Shown in pieces: positions 8,191 through 17,483 of a stretch of 20,725 bases of DNA (the first letter of the stretch is position 1; the number at the start of each line of letters is the position of its first letter). The notes below the pieces were generated by a model. That model was not told where the DNA came from. It saw only the letters and a program-made list of their open reading frames with translations, and did not search any database. A program made the position numbers and the translations under genes. The stretch is from Candidatus Zixiibacteriota bacterium (GTDB lineage: Bacteria; SM23-81), in assembly GCA_030628225.1 (NCBI GenBank), contig DAOVRJ010000006.1:1-20725 (forward strand). The letters run 5' to 3'.

Positions 8191-9012
8191 TTACCGCTCC
8201 CAAGGCCTCCAGAGATCCCTCCAGCCCCGGGTCTCCTCGGCCATCTTATTCTGGGCTTCCCGAATCTCCGCCCAGGTCTTTGGCTTCTCATCTTTGTTCT
8301 CCGGCTCATACCTGCTCAACACTTCGCGCAGACCGGTATTGGCGATCACTCCCGTCAGGCTAACACACACAAACAGCAGCCCGGCAATGCTGATCACGCC
8401 GACCAGAAGAACTATGCCTACCAGCAGCGCCAAACAGAGAGAGTACCACAGGTTGTCCAGCACGACCAAAATGCTCCGCCGAAGAATCTCCTTTATGGAA
8501 AGGTCTTCCCGCACCAGAAAAGCAAGGGCGTAGATCTGCACAAGACACAACAAGAGATAAACCCAAACCATCAGCCCCGCAGCAACCGCGCCGGGAAAGG
8601 TGAGTTTCCCGGACAGATGCTCGTAGAAAAAGACGTTCAGGGCCAAGAGCAAAGCAGCCAGGCTGAAAAATAGCCACAGGCCCAGGGAGGGGCCAAATAG
8701 TTTTCGCAAAGCGGGGAAAAACTCCCTTGCCCCTGCCTCCTGGTAGTGAGCCCACCGGGCGGTTACAGACCACAGGGCAGCCGAGACCGGTGAGACCATC
8801 AGTTGCTGAACGCCAATCAAAGCGATCATAAATCCCAGAAGAACTCTCCCAGCTGTGATCTGGGTCCAGCCCACCGTTAACAACAGAACTGCTACCGCAA
8901 TCCATGGGAGACTGAGCAGTGACCAGAAGAGATTCAGCAGTATGCATCCGCCTAGATGATCGTAGGCATTCCAAAAAACCTTCCTGGCCATCTGACCCAC
9001 AGACCTCTTCAT
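8191..9012 (-). CDS. Polytopic membrane protein, YesL/DUF624-like
   Basis: This integral inner-membrane protein has about 273 residues and roughly six hydrophobic segments, near residues 20-50, 55-80, 100-125, 130-165, 185-215 and 215-235. The N-terminus (VFWNAYDHLGGCILLNLFW) and the 'SPVSAALW' stretch resemble the DUF624/YesL family, whose biochemical function is not established. The C-terminus is a charged cytoplasmic tail (KDEKPKTWAEIREAQNKMAEE). I chose the ATG at 9012 because AAGGAGAGAGG lies about 9 nt upstream; the in-frame ATG at 9039 lies before that site. It is the first gene of the leftward cluster and is served by a candidate promoter at 9092-9120. About 41 nt separate its stop from the acpS start. 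The family assignment is by resemblance only. Confidence 0.7.
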   Translation of the reverse strand: MKRSVGQMARKVFWNAYDHLGGCILLNLFWSLLSLPWIAVAVLLLTVGWTQITAGRVLLGFMIALIGVQQLMVSPVSAALWSVTARWAHYQEAGAREFFPALRKLFGPSLGLWLFFSLAALLLALNVFFYEHLSGKLTFPGAVAAGLMVWVYLLLCLVQIYALAFLVREDLSIKEILRRSILVVLDNLWYSLCLALLVGIVLLVGVISIAGLLFVCVSLTGVIANTGLREVLSRYEPENKDEKPKTWAEIREAQNKMAEETRGWRDLWRPWER

Positions 9013-9062
9013 GGAAAAGCACCTCTCTCCTTTCTGCATGTGGTATCGTTAACTGATTTTTC

Positions 9063-9091
9063 TTGACACCGTGGCGTTTTTTCGCTATGCT
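9063..9091 (+). promoter_or_regulatory. Sigma-70-like promoter for ECF module 1
   Basis: TTGACA at 9063-9068 (perfect -35) is followed by a 17-nt spacer and TATGCT at 9086-9091. The start point would be near 9098, about 30 nt before the ATG at 9128. This looks like a housekeeping promoter rather than an ECF-type one, so sigma factor 1 need not depend on itself for basal expression. Confidence 0.65.
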
Positions 9092-9120
9092 AAAATATTA
9101 ACTTCCCACTAAAAATGCAA
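9092..9120 (-). promoter_or_regulatory. Candidate sigma-70 promoter for the leftward cluster
   Basis: On the minus strand TTGCAT (9120-9115) is followed after 17 nt by TATTTT (9097-9092). The match to TTGACA/TATAAT is moderate. It would start transcription near 9085 toward the gene at 9012. Its -10 box directly abuts the -10 box of the rightward promoter at 9063-9091. Confidence 0.45.
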
Positions 9121-9127
9121 CTTTTTA

Positions 9128-9730
9128 ATGAAACTTCTCGTAAACAAAATGAAAATAGCCAAAGCAGGGAGAAAAAAGGTTCAGGATCTGATTCAACGGG
9201 CTCTCTCCGGAGACCAGGGAGCCTTCACTGAGCTGCTGGACAGACACAAGCGTCTCGCCTACCAATTGGCTCTGGGCATTGTCAAGAACCCGGCAGAGGC
9301 AGATGACTTGGTCCAGGAATCGTTCATTAAAGCCTTCAGATCTCTGTCCAGTTACAAACCGCAATTTGCTTTCACATCCTGGCTGTGCAAAATCGTCTAC
9401 AACCACTGTCTCGACCATCTCCGGCGACGAAAGATCAAGGCCGTCTCCCTGGATGAGCCGATACGCGGTCAAAAGGGAAACATCAAGAGGGAAATCCCCG
9501 ATTGGACACTCAACCCGGAACGGCTACTTATCCGCAAACAACGCATGATCTCCATCGATCTGGCCATCGACTCGCTGCCCCCTCACTACCGGCGCGTCAT
9601 CGTGCTTCGCCACAAGGAAGACCGCTCCTACGAGGAAATCTCCAACATTCTGGACATCCCCCTGGGAACCGTGAAGGCTCAGATATTTCGTGCCCGGGAA
9701 CTGCTCAAGAAAAAACTGAAGGGCATATAG
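9128..9730 (+). CDS. ECF-family RNA polymerase sigma factor (module 1)
   Basis: This alternative sigma factor of 200 residues directs RNA polymerase to a dedicated promoter set. Region 2 spans about 31-101: AFTELLDRHKRLAYQLA, then NPAEADDLVQESFIKAF (core-binding DDLVQE motif) and FTSWLCKIVYNHCLDHLRRRK (-10 recognition). A linker follows, and region 4 spans about 140-196: LPPHYRRVIVLRHKEDRSYEEIS, then PLGTVKAQIFRARELLKKKL, the helix-turn-helix for the -35 element. There is no C-terminal extension. No good ribosome site precedes either the ATG at 9128 or the in-frame ATG at 9149, so the start is uncertain by 7 codons. It heads a three-gene run with a DUF4097 protein and a bactofilin-like protein. 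No anti-sigma gene is adjacent. Confidence 0.93.
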   Translation: MKLLVNKMKIAKAGRKKVQDLIQRALSGDQGAFTELLDRHKRLAYQLALGIVKNPAEADDLVQESFIKAFRSLSSYKPQFAFTSWLCKIVYNHCLDHLRRRKIKAVSLDEPIRGQKGNIKREIPDWTLNPERLLIRKQRMISIDLAIDSLPPHYRRVIVLRHKEDRSYEEISNILDIPLGTVKAQIFRARELLKKKLKGI

Positions 9731-9752
9731 ATTCGGGCGAGGAGATGGTACC

Positions 9753-10844
9753 ATGACCAGAAGAGCGACAAAACGGGTTTTGGTCACATTTTTTCTTCTC
9801 TCGTCCCTGGCTTATCACTATCCTGCCTGGGCAAGTTCAAAAAAGGTATATACTTTCCCGCAGCAGAAAACGATCCTCCCGGCGCCCGCTGATTTGATCT
9901 CCGTCCAGAGCACCCAGGGGGACATACGCATCATAGGCGGGGACCGGCAACAGGTGATTATCCAGGCCACCAAGCGGGTCAAGGCTCGCACCCGAGAGGA
10001 AGCCGAGGAATGGGCTCAAAAGGTGAACATCATCATCGACGAAAGGGAGAAGGATCTTTTCATCGGGACCAAAAAGCCCCGGGAGTGGTCGGGATCGCTT
10101 CGCGACTTCCTCTCCAGCCTTCTGGAAAAAAAACCATCTGTGCGGGTGGACTTTGAGATCCGCGCGCCCCGGGAGATGAACATCCAGGCGGTTTCGGTCA
10201 GCGGGGACATATACATAGCCGGCATCAATGGTCAGGTGGAAGTTGATGTGGTCAGCGGCGATGTGGAGCTGGAGGAGATCGGCGGAAACGTAGCCGTCGA
10301 TGCCGTTAGCGGGGACATGTTCTTTCAGGACATCCGCGGGGATCTGGAAATCGACGCTGTTAGCGGCGACACGGAGATGGCGGACATCCGTGGCGATATA
10401 AACATCGATATAACCAGCGGGGACGTTTCCGGCAAACGCATCGAGGGCAAGTTGGCGGTGGATGCCACCAGCGGAGACGTATCTATCAAGGCTATTCGCG
10501 GCGACGTCAAGATCGATGTGACCAGCGGGGATATCACCATCTGCCAGAAGAGCGGTGACCTGTGGATCGACACCAGCAGCGGGGATGTGCTGGTGGAAAC
10601 CATTGTGGAAAAAGCTTGCCGATATGAGGTGGATACCTCCAGCGGGGAGATCATGTTACGCATCCCGGAGACCTCCTCCAGCACGGTAGATCTGCAAACC
10701 TCCGCGGGCAGAATTCATGTCAAGCTGCCCATGATCGTCGAGTCTGTCTCGCGTACCCATCTGCGCGGCACCCTGGGGTCTGGAGCGGCAGAAATTGTCC
10801 TGTCCACATCTGGAGGAGATATCGATCTGCTGCCCTTGGACTAA
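9753..10844 (+). CDS. Exported DUF4097 beta-solenoid protein (module 1)
   Basis: The protein of 363 residues has a signal peptide (hydrophobic stretch VLVTFFLLSSLAYHYPAWAS, cleavage near 27), so it should act in the periplasm or at the cell surface. Residues 35-145 form a charged N-terminal part. From residue 150 to the end there is a very regular repeat: seven units of exactly 18 residues, each starting SGD and following the pattern SGD-x5-I-x-G-x-(V/L/I)-x-(V/I)-D, and then two units of 21. This is the DUF4097 (adhesin-like beta-strand) architecture and predicts a right-handed beta-solenoid. DUF4097 proteins such as YvlB are linked to cell-envelope stress systems, but no catalytic role is known. 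The ribosome site GCGAGGAG ends 8 nt before the ATG. The sigma gene lies 22 nt upstream and the bactofilin-like gene 26 nt downstream. Confidence 0.88.
   Translation: MTRRATKRVLVTFFLLSSLAYHYPAWASSKKVYTFPQQKTILPAPADLISVQSTQGDIRIIGGDRQQVIIQATKRVKARTREEAEEWAQKVNIIIDEREKDLFIGTKKPREWSGSLRDFLSSLLEKKPSVRVDFEIRAPREMNIQAVSVSGDIYIAGINGQVEVDVVSGDVELEEIGGNVAVDAVSGDMFFQDIRGDLEIDAVSGDTEMADIRGDINIDITSGDVSGKRIEGKLAVDATSGDVSIKAIRGDVKIDVTSGDITICQKSGDLWIDTSSGDVLVETIVEKACRYEVDTSSGEIMLRIPETSSSTVDLQTSAGRIHVKLPMIVESVSRTHLRGTLGSGAAEIVLSTSGGDIDLLPLD
10200..10703 (+). repeat. 54-bp periodic coding repeat (18-residue solenoid units)
   Basis: SGD codons start at 10200, 10254, 10308, 10362, 10416, 10470, 10524 and 10578, an exact 54-bp period for seven units. 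Two 63-bp units follow. DNA identity between units is moderate, so selection on the protein fold rather than recent duplication seems to keep the period. Confidence 0.8.
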
Positions 10845-10870
10845 GTCTGTTTGCTGCAAGGAGCTTAACT

Positions 10871-12091
10871 ATGACAAGAAAACGCTACCGCCATTATATT
10901 CAAATCCTCAATAAGCTGATCATCTTATCTTTTGTGGGTCTGTTGACCGCCTGCGGGTTCAGTCCAACAGTCGCCCAGGAGGTGGACACGACCAGTCCTG
11001 AGCCGAAAAAACAAATCACAGTGGAGATAGAGATCGGGGATGAGGGCGTGATCGTGCGCGGCTCTGAGAACAAGAAAAGCAAAAAAGCTAAAATCGGCAT
11101 CATCATCGACGATGATAAAATTATGGTGGACGGCAGTAGCATCGGCATCCTTGATCTGGACAGCGCTTTGAAGTGCATCACCATCGATGGCGGAGGCATC
11201 GTCAAATTCGGCGAGGACCTCACTATTGAAGAGGACAAGACCCTGCAAGGCGACGTGGTCGCCCTCGGCGGGGACATCACCGTCCTGGGCACGGTAACCG
11301 GTGATGTGGTCGCCCTCGGCGGGGACATCACCGTCCTGGGCACGGTAGCCGGTGATGTGGTCATTCTGGGCGGAGATCTGTACATTAAATCGACGGGCAC
11401 CATCAAGGGCGATGCCGTCACCGTTATGGGGAAAGTCCATCAGGAACGGGGCGCTGAAATCCGCGGACAGCGCGTTGGGGTGCTGCCCATAAGCCTCAAA
11501 ATACTTTTCAGCATGTTTCTGGCATTTTCCATCATCATATCCTTGCTTCTGGTCATCTTGGCAGTTTTGCTTGCTCCGAAAAATGTAGACCGGATTTGTG
11601 AGGCCATCGAGTTAGACTCTTTAAAATCGGCACTTATCGGTATCGTCGCTGCCATTGTGTTCGTTCTGCTGATCATCACTGTCATCGGAATCCCGGTGGC
11701 GTTTATCGCCTATTTCGTGGCCGGCTTTATGGGATTTGCCGGAATCAGCTTGTTCATGGGAACTAAGCTCCACAAAGGCTCTGGCCTGAGCCTTAGTTCT
11801 CCATTGGCCAAATCCTTTGCCGGAGCCGTGCTTTTAGAGTTGGTATTTGTCCTGGCCTGGCTTTTTAATTTGGGCGGTGACGCTTTATCTCCTTTGTTCT
11901 GGCTTTTCCTACTCATCGGCTGCATTATCATCTCCGTGGCAAACCTCGTTGGTCTGGGAGCTGCTTTCTGGACTCGTTTCGGCAAACGATCTGTGGCCCC
12001 CATCCCGATTCCCGTTCAGCAGGCCCCACCACTGTCACCAAAACAGGATGAAGAGGACGAAGAAATACCAGAAGCTCCTGCGTCCAGTTAA
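10871..12091 (+). CDS. Bactofilin-like (polymer-forming repeat) lipoprotein/membrane protein (module 1)
   Basis: The protein has 406 residues. The N-terminus has a hydrophobic stretch ending LLTAC (Cys28), a good lipobox. Residues 50-115 form a charged, strand-rich part. Residues about 127-195 carry polymer-forming repeats: GDVVALGGDITVLGTVT, GDVVALGGDITVLGTVA, GDVVILGGDLYIKS and GDAVTVMGKV, like bactofilin-type beta-helices. Residues 200-375 contain four or five membrane segments (for example ISLLLVILAVLLAP, AAIVFVLLIITVIGIPVAFIAY and WLFLLIGCIIISVANLVGL). A Pro- and acid-rich tail ends in DEEDEEIPEAPASS. Such repeat-plus-membrane proteins are often annotated as polymer-forming cytoskeletal proteins. 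A lipoprotein anchor together with several membrane helices is unusual, and the first segment could instead be a plain membrane anchor. The ribosome site AAGGAG (10858-10863) is 7 nt before the ATG. A terminator follows at 12170. Confidence 0.82.
   Translation: MTRKRYRHYIQILNKLIILSFVGLLTACGFSPTVAQEVDTTSPEPKKQITVEIEIGDEGVIVRGSENKKSKKAKIGIIIDDDKIMVDGSSIGILDLDSALKCITIDGGGIVKFGEDLTIEEDKTLQGDVVALGGDITVLGTVTGDVVALGGDITVLGTVAGDVVILGGDLYIKSTGTIKGDAVTVMGKVHQERGAEIRGQRVGVLPISLKILFSMFLAFSIIISLLLVILAVLLAPKNVDRICEAIELDSLKSALIGIVAAIVFVLLIITVIGIPVAFIAYFVAGFMGFAGISLFMGTKLHKGSGLSLSSPLAKSFAGAVLLELVFVLAWLFNLGGDALSPLFWLFLLIGCIIISVANLVGLGAAFWTRFGKRSVAPIPIPVQQAPPLSPKQDEEDEEIPEAPASS
11255..11347 (+). repeat. 51-bp direct repeat with 42-bp identical core inside the bactofilin-like gene
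   Basis: Bases 11255-11296 and 11306-11347 are identical over 42 nt at a 51-bp offset and encode VVALGGDITVLGTV twice. A third, diverged unit follows. Complete identity at synonymous sites indicates a recent in-frame duplication, or possible expansion and contraction. Confidence 0.9.
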
Positions 12092-12169
12092 TGAACAGCC
12101 TTGTAGCCCAAAAGTGAATCACAGGGGTTTTCTCAAGGCAACGGCGAACTCCAAAATCTCAGCCAGCTC

Positions 12170-12202
12170 AACCCGACGCCCTTCCGGTGTCGGGTTTTTT
12201 TT
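12170..12202 (+). terminator. Intrinsic terminator closing module 1
   Basis: The arm AACCCGACGCC (12170-12180) pairs with GGTGTCGGGTT (12186-12196): 11 bp with one G-U pair and a 5-nt loop. A run of T extends to 12202. It lies about 80 nt after the stop of the bactofilin-like gene and separates the two sigma modules. Confidence 0.9.
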
Positions 12203-12220
12203 CAGCGACCTATTTTTGTG

Positions 12221-12250
12221 GCAACCTTTTCACCACTCTCACACGTCATA
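12221..12250 (+). promoter_or_regulatory. Candidate ECF-type promoter for module 2
   Basis: GCAACCTTTT at 12221-12230 resembles the AAC-containing -35 element of many ECF sigma factors. CGTCATA at 12244-12250 resembles the CGTC-type -10 element. The AAC-to-CGTC gap is 18 nt, at the long end of the usual range. The position just after the terminator and about 40 nt before the sigma-2 start fits an autoregulated sigma operon. I saw no second copy of this motif in the window. Confidence 0.5.
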
Positions 12251-12286
12251 TTTTACGGTTAGAGATTTACTCGGGGGGAATTGGGT

Positions 12287-12874
12287 TTGAAAAAAGAACC
12301 CGAAGACCGGGATCTGATCCTATGCAGACGATGCCAGCGAGGCGATATCCATGCTCTGGAGGAGCTTTACAAAAGGCATAAGGATAAGGTATATGCTATC
12401 GCCCTCCGGCTGACCAACAATGTGCAGGATGCCGAGGATATCGTTCAGGATGTTTTCGTTCAGGTCTATCGAAAAATCGGCGGTTTTCGTGAAGATGCAG
12501 CTTTTACTTCCTGGCTTTACCGCATCTCCACGAACATCTCCCTGAGCGCTCTCCGGCGCAAAAAGCGTCTGGCCAGCAAGCCGGCGGCCGAGGAAGTCCT
12601 GAGGGCAAACCTCAACCCCGGAGCTCAGCGCAGCAAGCTGCTGAGACCTTTTCTGGAGCAAGCCATCGCCTCTCTTCCGCCGAAATCTCGAATGGTCTTT
12701 ATCCTTCACGATGTCCAGGGGTTCCAGCACAACGAGATCGCCCAGATGCTAACCTGCTCGGAGGGAACCTCGAAATCTCAGCTGCACAAGGCCCGGGCTC
12801 AGTTGAGAAAACGTCTGCTCCCACGCCTGGACATGATCGCTTCCCTGACCCATGTCTCTGGGGAGGAACCATAG
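12287..12874 (+). CDS. ECF-family RNA polymerase sigma factor (module 2)
   Basis: This ECF sigma factor has about 195 residues. Region 2 (about 18-95) includes LEELYKRHKDKVYAIALRL, NVQDAEDIVQDVFVQVYRK and FTSWLYRISTNISLSALRRKKR. Region 4 (about 125-182) includes LPPKSRMVFILHDVQGFQHNEIAQML and SEGTSKSQLHKARAQLRKRL, a helix-turn-helix typical of RpoE-like factors. The start is probably the TTG at 12287, which is 8 nt after GGGGGG at 12273-12278; an in-frame TTG at 12281 is only 2 nt from that site. The stop TAG is followed directly by the GTG start of the anti-sigma gene, which indicates tight translational coupling and equal dosing. It clearly differs from sigma factor 1, so the two modules are not a recent duplication. 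Confidence 0.93.
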   Translation: MKKEPEDRDLILCRRCQRGDIHALEELYKRHKDKVYAIALRLTNNVQDAEDIVQDVFVQVYRKIGGFREDAAFTSWLYRISTNISLSALRRKKRLASKPAAEEVLRANLNPGAQRSKLLRPFLEQAIASLPPKSRMVFILHDVQGFQHNEIAQMLTCSEGTSKSQLHKARAQLRKRLLPRLDMIASLTHVSGEEP

Positions 12875-13546
12875 GTGCACTGCCGTAAAATTCAAGAATT
12901 GCTCTCCCCCTATTTGGACGGGGAGCTCAAGCCCACCCGGGCGGCAGCCGTGGAAAAACATCTCTTGGGCTGTGGGCAATGCCGAAAGGTCTTAGATGAC
13001 CTGCGCCTTATTCTCTCTGAGGCGGAAAGTCTGGTCCCGGCGCACCTGGCCAGCGATCTATGGCCATCCATTGAACATAGCATCCTGGCCCAGCCGACCA
13101 TCTCGACGGTCAAGCGCCCACGCCACGCCCCGTTGTCCGGATGGCGGCCCAGAATCGCCTGGGCACTGGCACTGGCCGGCACATTCCTCATCGTCTTTTC
13201 TCTCCTGCGAGACCGCTTTCCATCGCCCGGGCCTGACCTGCCACCCGCTCAGGATCGCGCTCAGCTCCTGGCCACGGCTCAATCCGACATCGATCTTGCC
13301 CGGGCACACTATCAGCATTCCGTATCCGCTTTAGAGCAAATCGTCGCCCATCGAGCCCATGAGATGGACGAGGATCACGCCCGTCTGTACCGTGAAAAAC
13401 TGGCCCATCTAGATAATAGCATCGACGATTGCACCATCGCTCTGCAGAAAAACTCATATAACATCGGGGCGCAACGCGCCCTCTTCGACGCCTATGATAG
13501 GAAAATATCAACGCTCCGAGAGATGGCCGTTTCGGCCGCATATTAA
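12875..13546 (+). CDS. Membrane-anchored zinc-finger (zf-HC2) anti-sigma factor
   Basis: This protein of 223 residues should hold sigma factor 2 inactive at the membrane. The N-terminal cytoplasmic domain has the zf-HC2 pattern Cys3, His29, Cys33, Cys36 (HLLGCGQC), with LLSPYLDGEL between as in RsrA- and ChrR-type anti-sigma domains. One membrane segment runs about 94-111 (IAWALALAGTFLIVFSLL). The outer part (about 125-223) is helical and partly coiled-coil-like (ARAHYQHSVSALEQIV ... REKLAHLDNSIDDC) and could be the signal-sensing part. The start is a GTG immediately after the sigma-2 stop, with GGGGAGG upstream. Release could be by proteolysis or by redox or zinc change; the sequence does not decide. 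Confidence 0.9.
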   Translation: MHCRKIQELLSPYLDGELKPTRAAAVEKHLLGCGQCRKVLDDLRLILSEAESLVPAHLASDLWPSIEHSILAQPTISTVKRPRHAPLSGWRPRIAWALALAGTFLIVFSLLRDRFPSPGPDLPPAQDRAQLLATAQSDIDLARAHYQHSVSALEQIVAHRAHEMDEDHARLYREKLAHLDNSIDDCTIALQKNSYNIGAQRALFDAYDRKISTLREMAVSAAY

Positions 13547-13556
13547 GCTCCGGGCC

Positions 13557-15047
13557 ATGGTTTTCTCACCGGCGACCTTCATCCCGCTGGTTATCCTGGC
13601 CCTGGCGGCCACCGTCTTCGCCCAACAGGCGGGGTCTCCGGCAACGGGGGATCTCTCTGTGTTCCGCGACAGCCGGTTTGTCCTTTTGCCCAGCGCCCAG
13701 GATCTGATGGATTCTCTCTGGCCAGCCGAAAAATACGGCCAGGAGGTCCCCCTGGAGACCTTCGGGCAGAGCTCCCGGCAGGCTATGCGACTTTACCAGA
13801 AGGCTCTGGGTCGATATTTAGAGGAACTGCCCTGTGTTCAGGGTGTAGACTTGACCTGGCATCGCTGGTGGGAAAATTTTGACCGGCAGCAGGAACATTA
13901 TTGGATGATGTGGCAGGCCCGCTTCGGCAAGCTGTTCGTGCATCACCTGCAGAGTATCTGGACGGACGCATACTCGCATCGCCTGGAAAAGACCATCTCC
14001 CTCTCCGAAAGGCCCACTTTCTCTCTGGCTCACGAGCACGGCGATGTGGCCATCACCGGCTCATCGAAAACGACCGTGCATCTGGTCGCTGAGATCAAGA
14101 TCATCGCCGCCTCCCGGGCCGATGCTCAAAAATACGCCCAACAGATCGACTTTGCGGTAACTCGGGAAAACTCTGTCCTGAAAACGACCGTTCTTCTGCC
14201 CGCCGCTCGCCCTGAAACTGTGCAGGGAGTTTCCATCGACCTGGATGTGGAATTGCCCCGGGACTGTCCTCTTCTGGTAGAAAGCTGCTTTGGCAACATT
14301 CGCGTTCTGGGCATGACCAAGGGGCTCAGAGCCAAAAGCAGCCACGGTTCTTTGGAGGTTCGTGAGTGCAAGGGAGACCTAGACCTGGCCAACCGGCAGG
14401 GACAGATCAAGGTCACGCAGGGAGAGGGCATCCTCCGTGTGGAGACCAGTTTTGATCCCATCTTCGTGGCTGAATTTCTGGGCGATGTGTTCGCCAGCAA
14501 CAAATTTGGTCCTGTGAGCATCGAGGGGGTCTGTGGATCGGTACAGATCGAGAACAGCGCCGGGCTCATCAGAACTGTCGATATCGACGGGGACGCAACA
14601 ATCAGCAATCGCCTGGGTCAGGTGGTAGTACAGGGAGTGGCCGGCGATCTTTCGGTGGATAATGCCGGTGCTCCGGTGAACATCGCCGGCGTGCTTGGCC
14701 AAACGTATATTGAGAGTAAACAGGGGAAGATATGCGCCGAAAAACTCCGCGGAGACGTGATAATTTTCAACCAAAATGGAGATATCGAACTGGCTCTGGA
14801 CGAGATACGCCAGAACCTTTATCGCCTGGACACCTCCTTTGGAGTCGTCCGGCTCAATTTCCCCCCCAGCCCCTCGGCCACCATTCGTGCCCAGACCTTC
14901 TGCGGCACCATCGACTCCGATTTCCCCCTGGAGATCACCCGGGTGGGGACCACCCAGATGGCTCGCGGCAAGCTCGGCCAGGGGAAAACCCTCATCCAGC
15001 TGGATGCCAAAAATTCGAACATCTATCTCATCTCCTCCAAGAGGTGA
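13557..15047 (+). CDS. Exported DUF4097-type beta-strand protein (module 2)
   Basis: The protein has 496 residues if started at the ATG at 13557, which begins a signal peptide (MVFSPATFIPLVILALAATVFAQQ). The frame is open back to 13494 inside the anti-sigma gene, but that start would place 21 polar residues before the signal. Residues 25-150 form a helical, Trp-rich part (WHRWWENF, WMMWQARF). From about 155 to the end it is a chain of short strands of the DUF4097 kind: LAHEHGDVAITG, FGNIRVLGM, SHGSLEVREC, KGDLDLANRQGQIKV and GDVIIFNQNGDIEL. Repeats are less regular than in the module 1 relative. It starts 11 nt after the anti-sigma stop and ends 19 nt before the PDZ gene, so all four genes are likely one transcript. 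It may be a target or partner of the sigma system; its function is not known. Confidence 0.82.
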   Translation: MVFSPATFIPLVILALAATVFAQQAGSPATGDLSVFRDSRFVLLPSAQDLMDSLWPAEKYGQEVPLETFGQSSRQAMRLYQKALGRYLEELPCVQGVDLTWHRWWENFDRQQEHYWMMWQARFGKLFVHHLQSIWTDAYSHRLEKTISLSERPTFSLAHEHGDVAITGSSKTTVHLVAEIKIIAASRADAQKYAQQIDFAVTRENSVLKTTVLLPAARPETVQGVSIDLDVELPRDCPLLVESCFGNIRVLGMTKGLRAKSSHGSLEVRECKGDLDLANRQGQIKVTQGEGILRVETSFDPIFVAEFLGDVFASNKFGPVSIEGVCGSVQIENSAGLIRTVDIDGDATISNRLGQVVVQGVAGDLSVDNAGAPVNIAGVLGQTYIESKQGKICAEKLRGDVIIFNQNGDIELALDEIRQNLYRLDTSFGVVRLNFPPSPSATIRAQTFCGTIDSDFPLEITRVGTTQMARGKLGQGKTLIQLDAKNSNIYLISSKR

Positions 15048-15066
15048 GGGAAAGGAGAACACTTTT

Positions 15067-16083
15067 ATGAAAACCACCTTCAATCGCTCAGGAGTCGTGC
15101 TTCTTCTCCCCGTGCTTATCTTGCTGGCCATTTTCTTTTTGGTAGTTTCCACCGCCGCCGCCTGCGAAACTGAGGAAAATGGCTGGCTGGGCGTTTCCCT
15201 GCAACAGCTCACGGCAGACCTGCGCGAGGCCATGGACATCCCGTCAGGCACTGGCGTGCTGATCACGAACGTCGTCGAGGAAAGCCCGGCCCAAGAGGCG
15301 GGCATCGCGGTGGGCGACGTCATCTTGAAATACAACGACACGGCGATCACCTCCCCACACCACCTGTCGCGGCTGGTTCGAAAAACGGCTCCCGGCTCGA
15401 AGGTGACGGTAGAGATCTCCCGCCAGGGCAAGGAGAAAAGTCTCACCGTGAAGATCGGAGATCTAGAGCGGGAAATGGAGACATATTCCTGGCACGGCGA
15501 AATTGACCTGGACGAAATCCCACACCTCATTGGCCACTGGCTGGGCCCTGATCTCTGGCTGGGGGTGCATACCGTTGACCTGTCCGATCAGCTGGCTCAG
15601 TATTTCCACATCAAGGATGGCCGCGGTGTTCTGATCAAAGAGGTGATCGAGGACAGCCCTGCGGAAAAGGCCGGGCTTAAAGCCGGGGATGTGATCATCA
15701 AAACCGACGGTGAACGAATCGAGGATACACGCGATCTCCACCAGGTCATCGGAGGGCACGAGGAAGGGGAGGATATGGAGCTGGTGGTAGTACGCCAGGG
15801 CAAGGAGAAAAAACTGACCGCCACCCTGGAGGAGCCACCCTTTCACGGCGCAGATAAATTGGCCAAAAAGCTTAAGAAGCTCCCCGGCAAGCTGGAACGC
15901 ATGATGATGAAGGCTCCCTGTCACGAGCGGATGAAGGTAAAAGTTCCTCTCCATGAGCTGAAGGATATTCGCGTGGAGGTAATAAAAGAACTGGACGAGC
16001 TCGACATCCAAGAACTTGAAGACCGACTGGACAAGCTGGAAGAGGAGCTGGACCTGATCAAGGAAAAGATAGAGACAGATTGA
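15067..16083 (+). CDS. Exported double-PDZ protein without protease domain (module 2)
   Basis: The protein has 338 residues. The ATG at 15067 is preceded by AAAGGAG (15051-15057) and starts a signal peptide (GVVLLLPVLILLAIFFLVV, small residues before Cys33). The frame is open farther upstream but only over the DUF4097 gene. Two PDZ domains follow: PDZ1 at about 40-131 (GWLGVSL, GTGVLITNVVEESPAQEAGI, VGDVILKYND) and PDZ2 at about 164-253 (LWLGVHT, GRGVLIKEVIEDSPAEKAGL, AGDVIIKTDG). Both are of the HtrA/DegP type, but no trypsin-like domain is present. The C-terminal residues 303-336 (VIKELDELDIQELEDRLDKLEEELDLIKE) form a strong coiled coil. It probably binds peptides or C-termini in the periplasm, perhaps as an adaptor in sensing; this is inferred from context with the anti-sigma gene. 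Confidence 0.85.
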   Translation: MKTTFNRSGVVLLLPVLILLAIFFLVVSTAAACETEENGWLGVSLQQLTADLREAMDIPSGTGVLITNVVEESPAQEAGIAVGDVILKYNDTAITSPHHLSRLVRKTAPGSKVTVEISRQGKEKSLTVKIGDLEREMETYSWHGEIDLDEIPHLIGHWLGPDLWLGVHTVDLSDQLAQYFHIKDGRGVLIKEVIEDSPAEKAGLKAGDVIIKTDGERIEDTRDLHQVIGGHEEGEDMELVVVRQGKEKKLTATLEEPPFHGADKLAKKLKKLPGKLERMMMKAPCHERMKVKVPLHELKDIRVEVIKELDELDIQELEDRLDKLEEELDLIKEKIETD

Positions 16084-16639: not shown

Positions 16640-16756
16640 TCTCCCCGGAAAGCATGCTCTGGAAAACGCAGTGCAGGGAACTCAAATATCCCAAACACCC
16701 TGATTGACAGGGTGTTTGAAGCCGCATTCGCTTCGGGACTGCAGCCGGGATGGAGA
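16640..16756 (+). ncRNA. Candidate structured RNA element (unassigned)
   Basis: Nested helices can be drawn by eye. P1 is 16640-16648 with 16745-16756 (9 bp around a 3-nt bulge). P2 is GCAGT at 16668-16672 with ACTGC at 16738-16742. P3 is a perfect 11-bp hairpin, CAAACACCCTG at 16692-16702 with CAGGGTGTTTG at 16708-16718. P4 is AAGC at 16719-16722 with GCTT at 16730-16733, adjacent to P3. It does not match any riboswitch class I know by sequence. It lies about 170 nt upstream of a surface-protein gene, so it may be a leader element or an independent RNA. Confidence 0.4.
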
Positions 16757-16865
16757 GAGGATGTGCAGATTTATCGGTCCCGTTGAAAAAGCGGTTCAAG
16801 CGGAACAGTTTTTGCTGTATTTAATTGATATAAATAAAGTAAGACAAAAGTTGCTTGTTTGCAAT

Positions 16866-16893
16866 TTGAGACGGCCAATGGTCGCTCTATATG
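16866..16893 (+). promoter_or_regulatory. Candidate sigma-70 promoter for the surface-protein genes
   Basis: TTGAGA (16866-16871) is followed after 16 nt by TATATG (16888-16893). The start would be near 16900, leaving a leader of about 29 nt that includes the ribosome site AGAGGAG at 16913-16919. If this promoter is used, the folded segment at 16640-16756 is not part of that mRNA. Confidence 0.4.
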
Positions 16894-16928
16894 ATCCGAG
16901 TCCTCATCATAAAGAGGAGCACAGCAAA

Positions 16929-17483
16929 ATGAACAAACGTCTGTATGTTTCTTTGTTGACCGGGATCTGTCTATCTCTGCTGTTCAGCGCTGCTGCATTG
17001 GCCGACCACCTGCTGGTCAAGGACGTACTCAACAACGGCGGTGGACATGTCGAATCGGCCAGTTATCTGCTGGATTACTCTGTCGGCCAGGTGGCCATTG
17101 GCCGGAGCATGGGATCCAGCTATATAGAATGGGCAGGCTTCTGGGGATGGTCGCTCTGGGAGCCATTCCTGGCAGCAGAGGGGGAAACCCAGCAATTTTT
17201 GCCCACAACCTATGCCCTGCAACAGAACTACCCCAATCCCTTCAACCCGCAGACGCGCATTAGCTATCAGCTTCCTCGGGCCGTTCACGTCTCTCTGGTC
17301 GTTTTCAACGTCAAAGGCCAGGTGGTATGCCGGCTGGTCGATGAATATCAGGCCTCCGGAGAACACCTGGTTACCTGGAACGGCACCGATCAATCGGGCT
17401 GTTCGGTATCCAGCGGCGTCTATTTTTACCGTCTCTGTGCGGCTGATTTTCAAGAAATGCGCAAGATGCTCCTGCTGAAATAG
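16929..17483 (+). CDS. Small secreted protein with C-terminal NYPNPFN sorting domain
   Basis: The protein has 184 residues. The ATG at 16929 is 9 nt after AGAGGAG and starts a signal peptide (MNKRLYVSLLTGICLSLLFSA, cleavage near ALA-D at 26). The frame is open upstream to 16704 without a signal or ribosome site. Residues 27-80 are a short segment with 'SASYLLDYSVGQVAIG', a pattern I associate with short FCB secreted proteins. Residues 100-184 are the sorting domain: NYPNPFNPQTRISYQL, VFNVKGQVVCRLVDE, WNGTDQSGCSVSSGVYFYRL, ending KMLLLK. With so little between signal and sorting domain, the mature cargo is only about 60 residues. It precedes the long surface protein by 48 nt. Confidence 0.85.
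   Translation: MNKRLYVSLLTGICLSLLFSAAALADHLLVKDVLNNGGGHVESASYLLDYSVGQVAIGRSMGSSYIEWAGFWGWSLWEPFLAAEGETQQFLPTTYALQQNYPNPFNPQTRISYQLPRAVHVSLVVFNVKGQVVCRLVDEYQASGEHLVTWNGTDQSGCSVSSGVYFYRLCAADFQEMRKMLLLK

Follow-up and report, generated by a model that had tools for sequence, protein, structure and literature searches.

Neighbouring ECF sigma factor/DUF4097 modules in Candidatus Zixiibacteriota: two probably independent envelope operons, one lacking a recognisable anti-sigma gene

Results

A seven-gene block with two ECF sigma factors

The window analysed here, a stretch of 20,725 nucleotides that makes up an entire contig (G000:C248) of a Candidatus Zixiibacteriota draft genome, carries seven plus-strand genes, arranged head to tail, between positions 9128 and 16083. 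The first three (module 1) encode an ECF sigma factor (sigma1), a DUF4097 protein (DUF4097-1), and a solenoid membrane protein, and the remaining four (module 2) encode a second sigma factor (sigma2), a zf-HC2 anti-sigma factor, another DUF4097 protein (DUF4097-2), and a double-PDZ protein. All seven genes, their order, and their common strand agree with an initial annotation made from the sequence alone, and the corresponding Pfam domains were found. Gene order and flanks are identical in candidate division Zixibacteria bacterium SM23_81 (G001, contig LJUY01000022), which belongs to a second genus of the same family, arguing that the block represents more than a chance arrangement.

The immediate neighbour of module 1 is a divergently oriented membrane protein gene (8191–9039, minus strand) resembling DUF624/YesL, with a match just under the cut-off (DUF624, E = 4e-4); its product is 63% identical to that of the module-adjacent gene in G001. 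A gene for a 30% identical homologue is also divergent from module 1 in G138, a genome from outside the phylum (L207, 7778–8584). Farther out, the flanks at 418–2196 and 16704–17483 encode exported proteins with C-terminal sorting-type ends (FlgD_ig/Por_Secre_tail), recognised by a domain match in the second and by similarity between the two, which suggests that the organism uses a type IX-like secretion route.

Sigma1 (plus strand, preferred start 9149, end 9730; the open reading frame opens at 9128) matches Sigma70_r2 (5e-18) and r4_2 (3e-15), and sigma2 (12281–12874, plus strand, TTG start) matches the same two domains (2e-19 and 2e-16). At 200 and 197 amino acids, respectively, both proteins consist of regions 2 and 4 only, joined by a short linker, as is characteristic of the ECF architecture; the NCBIfam matches of these ECF sigma factors fall under the equivalog cut-offs. 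DUF4097-1 (9753–10844, plus strand) carries a signal peptide and a strong match to PF13349 (4e-31).

The third gene of module 1 (10871–12091, plus strand) encodes an exported protein for which the predicted structure comprises coils of beta-strands followed by six helices; its assignment to a bactofilin-like family of solenoid and multi-helix membrane proteins derives from this model and from homologues. The window protein itself has a weak claim to the label "bactofilin-like": it has no match to Bactofilin (PF04519) among Pfam families, where FapA appears at E = 0.008; the best bactofilin fold match reaches only E = 0.8, and a sequence search for related solved structures returned none. The label is fair for the family, because two of eight homologues match PF04519 (best 1.5e-8). 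Within the gene, a nearly exact 51-base tandem duplication at 11248–11355 adds one 17-residue solenoid repeat (GDVVALGGDITVLGTV) that, by alignment, is absent from most relatives, including that of G001. The homologue in G299 (L217, 1545–3449, G299:C123) bears a C-terminal extension of approximately 250 residues. A LiaF-like_C match (E = 0.004) occurs in one of the eight family members, probably this G299 protein, which would thereby join a solenoid and a Toastrack-type domain in a single polypeptide. In G002 (L064, 4021–15970, G002:C59), module 1 is expanded by two proteins of the families DUF5916 and DUF4932, another DUF4097 protein, and a protein of 974 residues that carries a peptidase M1 domain and has a weakly Omp85-like end.

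In module 2, sigma2 is followed by a membrane zinc-finger (ZAS) anti-sigma factor (12875–13546, plus strand; zf-HC2, 9e-13), in which the H-x3-C-x2-C motif of zf-HC2 and a subsequent membrane segment around residue 95 can be read directly; a search of viral contigs for this protein gave no match. DUF4097-2 (13557–15047, plus strand, in a frame that opens at 13494) has a signal peptide and matches PF13349 weakly (3e-6), and its predicted beta-helix retrieves 4qrk and 4opw as first PDB matches. Both of these structures have been cited as examples of Toastrack, the name also given to DUF4097 (PMC11237479). The two DUF4097 proteins are assigned to this family by sequence and, for DUF4097-2, by the structural model as well. 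The N-terminal helical region of DUF4097-2 (13557–14030, approximately 130 residues) is predicted with low confidence; it is shared with G001 and mostly absent from G058. The block ends with an exported protein (15067–16083, plus strand) containing two PDZ stretches (PDZ_2, 1e-38), whose closest solved chains are those of DegP-like proteins and MucD. No trypsin-like protease domain was found in this protein, which has PDZ domains only.

Promoters and a terminator divide the block

A sigma-70-like promoter upstream of module 1, which we designate P1 (TTGACA-N17-TATGCT, plus strand, 9063–9091), is kept in G001 and has a counterpart in the sister-family genomes G002 and G003 (TTGACT-N17-TATAAA). 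Farther downstream lies a candidate ECF-type promoter, P2 (TGCAAC-N17-CGTA, plus strand, 9116–9142), that is likely to be read by sigma1. As P2 overlaps the start codon at 9128, the ATG at 9149 is probably the true start of sigma1. This codon sits six bases past the CGTA element, with the same spacing in G001 and G138, and a P2 transcript would be leaderless if translation begins there. In G002, just 4 bases separate the CGTA from the start codon, a short distance if the site is to serve this gene as promoter. With P1 and P2, module 1 has two candidate promoters. The placement of a housekeeping-type promoter before module 1 and an ECF-type promoter before module 2 in the initial annotation is supported; that annotation had overlooked P2.

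ECF promoters follow a rule of AAC in the −35 and CGT in the −10 element (PMC8103513), and both elements are present before the own gene of sigma1 and of sigma2. The form G(A/C)AAC-N15-18-CGTA occurs upstream of seven of eight sigma1-clade genes, compared with 0.04 expected in shuffled sequences, a contrast that is optimistic because the motif was spotted by eye before counting; its background frequency is 8 in 1115 regions. A genome-wide scan for further sigma1 targets gave counts near those of the reversed control, and only the site of sigma1 itself recurs in orthologues. One sigma1-type match in G001 (L260, 1501–1527, G001:C17) lies approximately 160–190 bases upstream of a double-PspC gene, with a PadR-like gene next in line. 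This match is probably due to chance, as a rough check, in which gene starts were not located, found no such site before the PspC genes of other genomes.

Between the modules, a predicted intrinsic terminator (12170–12203, plus strand; −19.4 kcal/mol, z = −6) is also found in G001, where substitutions in the stem preserve pairing, and this conserved element divides the block into two transcription units. Directly past it lies a candidate ECF-type promoter for module 2 (CAACCTT-N15-CGTC, plus strand, 12222–12247), whose elements, TGGCAACCTTT...CACACGTC, are kept in G001. The CAACCTT...CGTC arrangement is also present upstream of sigma2 relatives in G058 and G328, and the sigma2-clade motif was detected at 4 of 8 loci overall. 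Exact matches to this motif number four in G000, equal to the reversed-control count, and those examined, apart from the promoter of sigma2 itself, fall within open reading frames.

The two modules have separate lineages

In an unrooted tree of 34 sigma factors, sigma1 and sigma2 fall in different well-supported clades, and their placement in a single clade is rejected (p = 3.9e-7), in keeping with the earlier view that the block is not a simple duplication. Relatives of sigma2 reside in sigma–anti-sigma–DUF4097 operons in G009, G058, G328, G275, and G285, although the putative anti-sigma factor of G285 has no zinc-finger motif. Relatives of sigma1 occur in sigma–DUF4097–ZAS–solenoid operons in G138 and G275 and in a sigma–ZAS–solenoid operon in G105, with the zf-HC2 assignment based on Pfam in G105 and on the motif in the other two genomes.

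Both modules are adjacent in the two family genera examined (G000 and G001), and this adjacency was seen nowhere else. The sister-family genomes (G002 and G003) carry module 1 with no module 2 next to it. Of the loci read, those in G058 hold module 2 alone and those in G299 module 1 alone, and G275 carries both module types on different contigs. Moreover, the motif of either sigma clade was never found before the other module (0 of 8 loci in both directions). The two-layer, cross-talking system that had been proposed from the side-by-side placement is thus not supported, given the separation of the modules elsewhere, the absence of crosswise motifs, and the terminator between them; modules apart in relatives, with neither motif preceding the other module, is largely the outcome that the proposal itself had named as counting against it.

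The accompanying statement that DUF4097 proteins constantly partner ECF factors is likewise too strong. In a sample of 60 DUF4097 loci from outside the phylum, approximately nine have an ECF sigma factor gene within six genes; this may be a slight underestimate, because four of the nine surfaced only upon reading of the loci, the DUF4097 frame having been missed automatically.

An operon in G002 encoding a sigma factor, an anti-sigma factor, and an HtrA-like protein was considered as a displaced module 2 and discarded, since a sister relationship between its sigma factor and sigma2 is rejected (p = 0.004). The anti-sigma gene lies beside the gene for the HtrA-like protein, which has a trypsin-like domain and PDZ, in both G002 (L164, 3827–6444, G002:C112), where a sigma gene precedes the pair, and G003 (L165, 3693–5450, G003:C39). 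By eye, both proteins have other residues in place of the usual catalytic His and Asp (TKDV/LNLAV in G002, TGDV/SNLTV in G003), and Thr stands in for the catalytic Ser in G002 (GNTGG) but not in G003 (GNSGG). Both are probably inactive proteases.

An empty anti-sigma slot in module 1

The anti-sigma gene that fills a slot in the sigma1-type cassettes of G138, G275, and G105 is missing from module 1, a feature that the initial annotation had overlooked. Sigma1 genes without an anti-sigma neighbour are found in all four phylum genomes (G000–G003) and in G299, which lies outside the phylum, and they make up a single subclade (97/96) of the broader sigma1 clade (99/99). ECF sigma factors usually, though not necessarily, have a cognate anti-sigma factor that is co-transcribed with them. 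Among the ECF genes read in G000 and G001, besides which G000:C157 holds a sigma-like frame of 147 residues, zf-HC2 genes adjoin those at C24, C140, and C38 in G000 and at C29, C36, and C76 in G001, as well as sigma2; none lies beside sigma1, and no orphan zf-HC2 gene is common to the four phylum genomes. Among the orphans considered as a distant partner of sigma1, that at G000:C217 probably belongs to a continuation of C24 and that at G003:C39 lies at a contig edge, leaving G002:C73 as the only true orphan. Unconventional anti-sigma factors are hard to recognise (PMC8103513), and an unusual partner of sigma1 could be missed by a zf-HC2 search. Loss of the gene from the sigma1 cassette appears to be the simpler reading of the present distribution, although an unrooted tree cannot give the direction.

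Discussion

From the gene content, sigma clades, motifs, terminator, and missing anti-sigma gene, we assign a probability of roughly 0.68 to the reading that the block comprises two independent ECF envelope operons that are neighbours in one family, of which module 2 would be canonical and module 1 autoregulated without an anti-sigma factor. In module 2, the membrane zinc-finger protein would hold sigma2 until an envelope signal frees it, presumably through regulated proteolysis. An RseP-like site-2 protease is encoded in full in G001 and as a fragment in G000 (C120), which would allow release by the usual route. Freed sigma2 would then drive its own operon from CAACCTT-N15-CGTC, with the Toastrack and double-PDZ proteins possibly acting as envelope effectors or feedback parts. 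In module 1, P1 would give basal expression and P2 would amplify it through autoregulation by sigma1. This module may represent the sigma1/DUF4097/zinc-finger anti-sigma/solenoid cassette minus its anti-sigma gene, most simply by loss, with the activity of sigma1 depending on its own expression or on another partner, such as the solenoid membrane protein. ECF promoter rules, autoregulation, and control in the absence of an anti-sigma factor have all been described (PMC8103513; PMC8999054), and in the last case control can operate through transcription, conformational change, proteolysis, phosphorylation, or terminal extensions (PMC8999054). Sigma1 has no terminal extension.

A two-layer arrangement, in which one sigma factor reads the promoter of the other module or the module 2 anti-sigma factor also restrains sigma1, seems unlikely. 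It would account for the adjacency kept in both family genera and for the lack of an anti-sigma factor dedicated to sigma1, and the family promoters share a GCAAC(C/T)TTT −35 region in which P2 departs from the TGAAAC form of G002, G003, G299, and G138. However, AAC is common in the −35 elements of ECF promoters generally, and the −10 elements differ (CGTA versus CGTC) and track the sigma clades even where one module stands alone; a terminator separates modules that other lineages keep apart. A related scenario is similarly doubtful: the sigma1 clade might have lost its anti-sigma factor and kept the autoregulatory promoter, its Toastrack and solenoid proteins might have become the restraining sensor, and P2 might have drifted toward the sigma2 −35 element, such that module 2 may feed module 1.

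Slightly less probable again is that module 1 is transcribed from P1 and P2 is no working promoter, with sigma1 being constitutive or externally regulated and serving other genes. The conservation of P1 in four genomes, the position of P2 very near the start codon, and the control-level count of other genome-wide matches would all fit this possibility, but the motif precedes nearly every sigma1-clade gene, including those of G299 and G105, which have no recognisable P1. That the modules are old, diverged copies of one sigma/DUF4097 unit duplicated in tandem is barely credible despite their shared design of a sigma factor with an exported DUF4097 protein: the two sigma factors group with different foreign relatives, which, with the rejection of a single clade, refutes such an origin for the sigma genes, and the presence of both cassette types in other lineages indicates that their split is older than the family.

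Every part of the block is of a known kind. Module 2 resembles the RpoE–RseA and SigW–RsiW pairs in having a sigma factor, an adjacent membrane zf-HC2 anti-sigma factor, and an ECF-type, putatively autoregulatory promoter; it differs in adding Toastrack and double-PDZ proteins, and module 1 differs in lacking the anti-sigma gene. Operons of the algU-mucA-mucB-mucC-mucD type encode a sigma factor, an anti-sigma factor, a periplasmic regulator, and an HtrA-type protease. Module 2 has the same order of sigma factor, anti-sigma factor, periplasmic protein, and PDZ protein, the last being nearest to DegP-like proteins and MucD, but it lacks a protease domain and has a DUF4097 protein in the place of MucB.

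The operonic linkage of Toastrack with a sigma factor has been mentioned previously (PMC11237479), and the present locus shares with the Toastrack/Lia/PSP systems described there both this linkage and, in one of eight solenoid homologues, the LiaF-like_C match. In contrast to those systems, the locus has no two-component system, and its Toastrack proteins carry signal peptides and are predicted to be exported, whereas an intracellular Toastrack has been argued for (PMC11237479). PspA was detected in none of the four phylum genomes, with 9 of 14 control genomes positive, and PspC is present in the phylum, although not at this locus. Like AntA and HrpL (PMC8999054), sigma1 has no recognisable anti-sigma factor next door; unlike them, it sits with DUF4097 and solenoid genes and has relatives that keep an anti-sigma factor in the same cassette. 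The solenoid protein recalls bactofilins in its short beta-solenoid repeats but differs in being exported or membrane-bound and in its additional multi-helix membrane domain.

Within the open-access literature searched, the existence of two cassette types with clade-specific motifs, together with an anti-sigma-less branch, appears to be new. DUF4097/Toastrack proteins beside ECF sigma factors have been little studied, and two cassettes whose clade-specific motifs can be traced across lineages would offer, in place of a neighbour of obscure role, two regulons open to testing. A clade that lacks the anti-sigma gene while keeping the other parts of its cassette also raises the question of what checks an apparently autoregulated ECF sigma factor without the usual brake.
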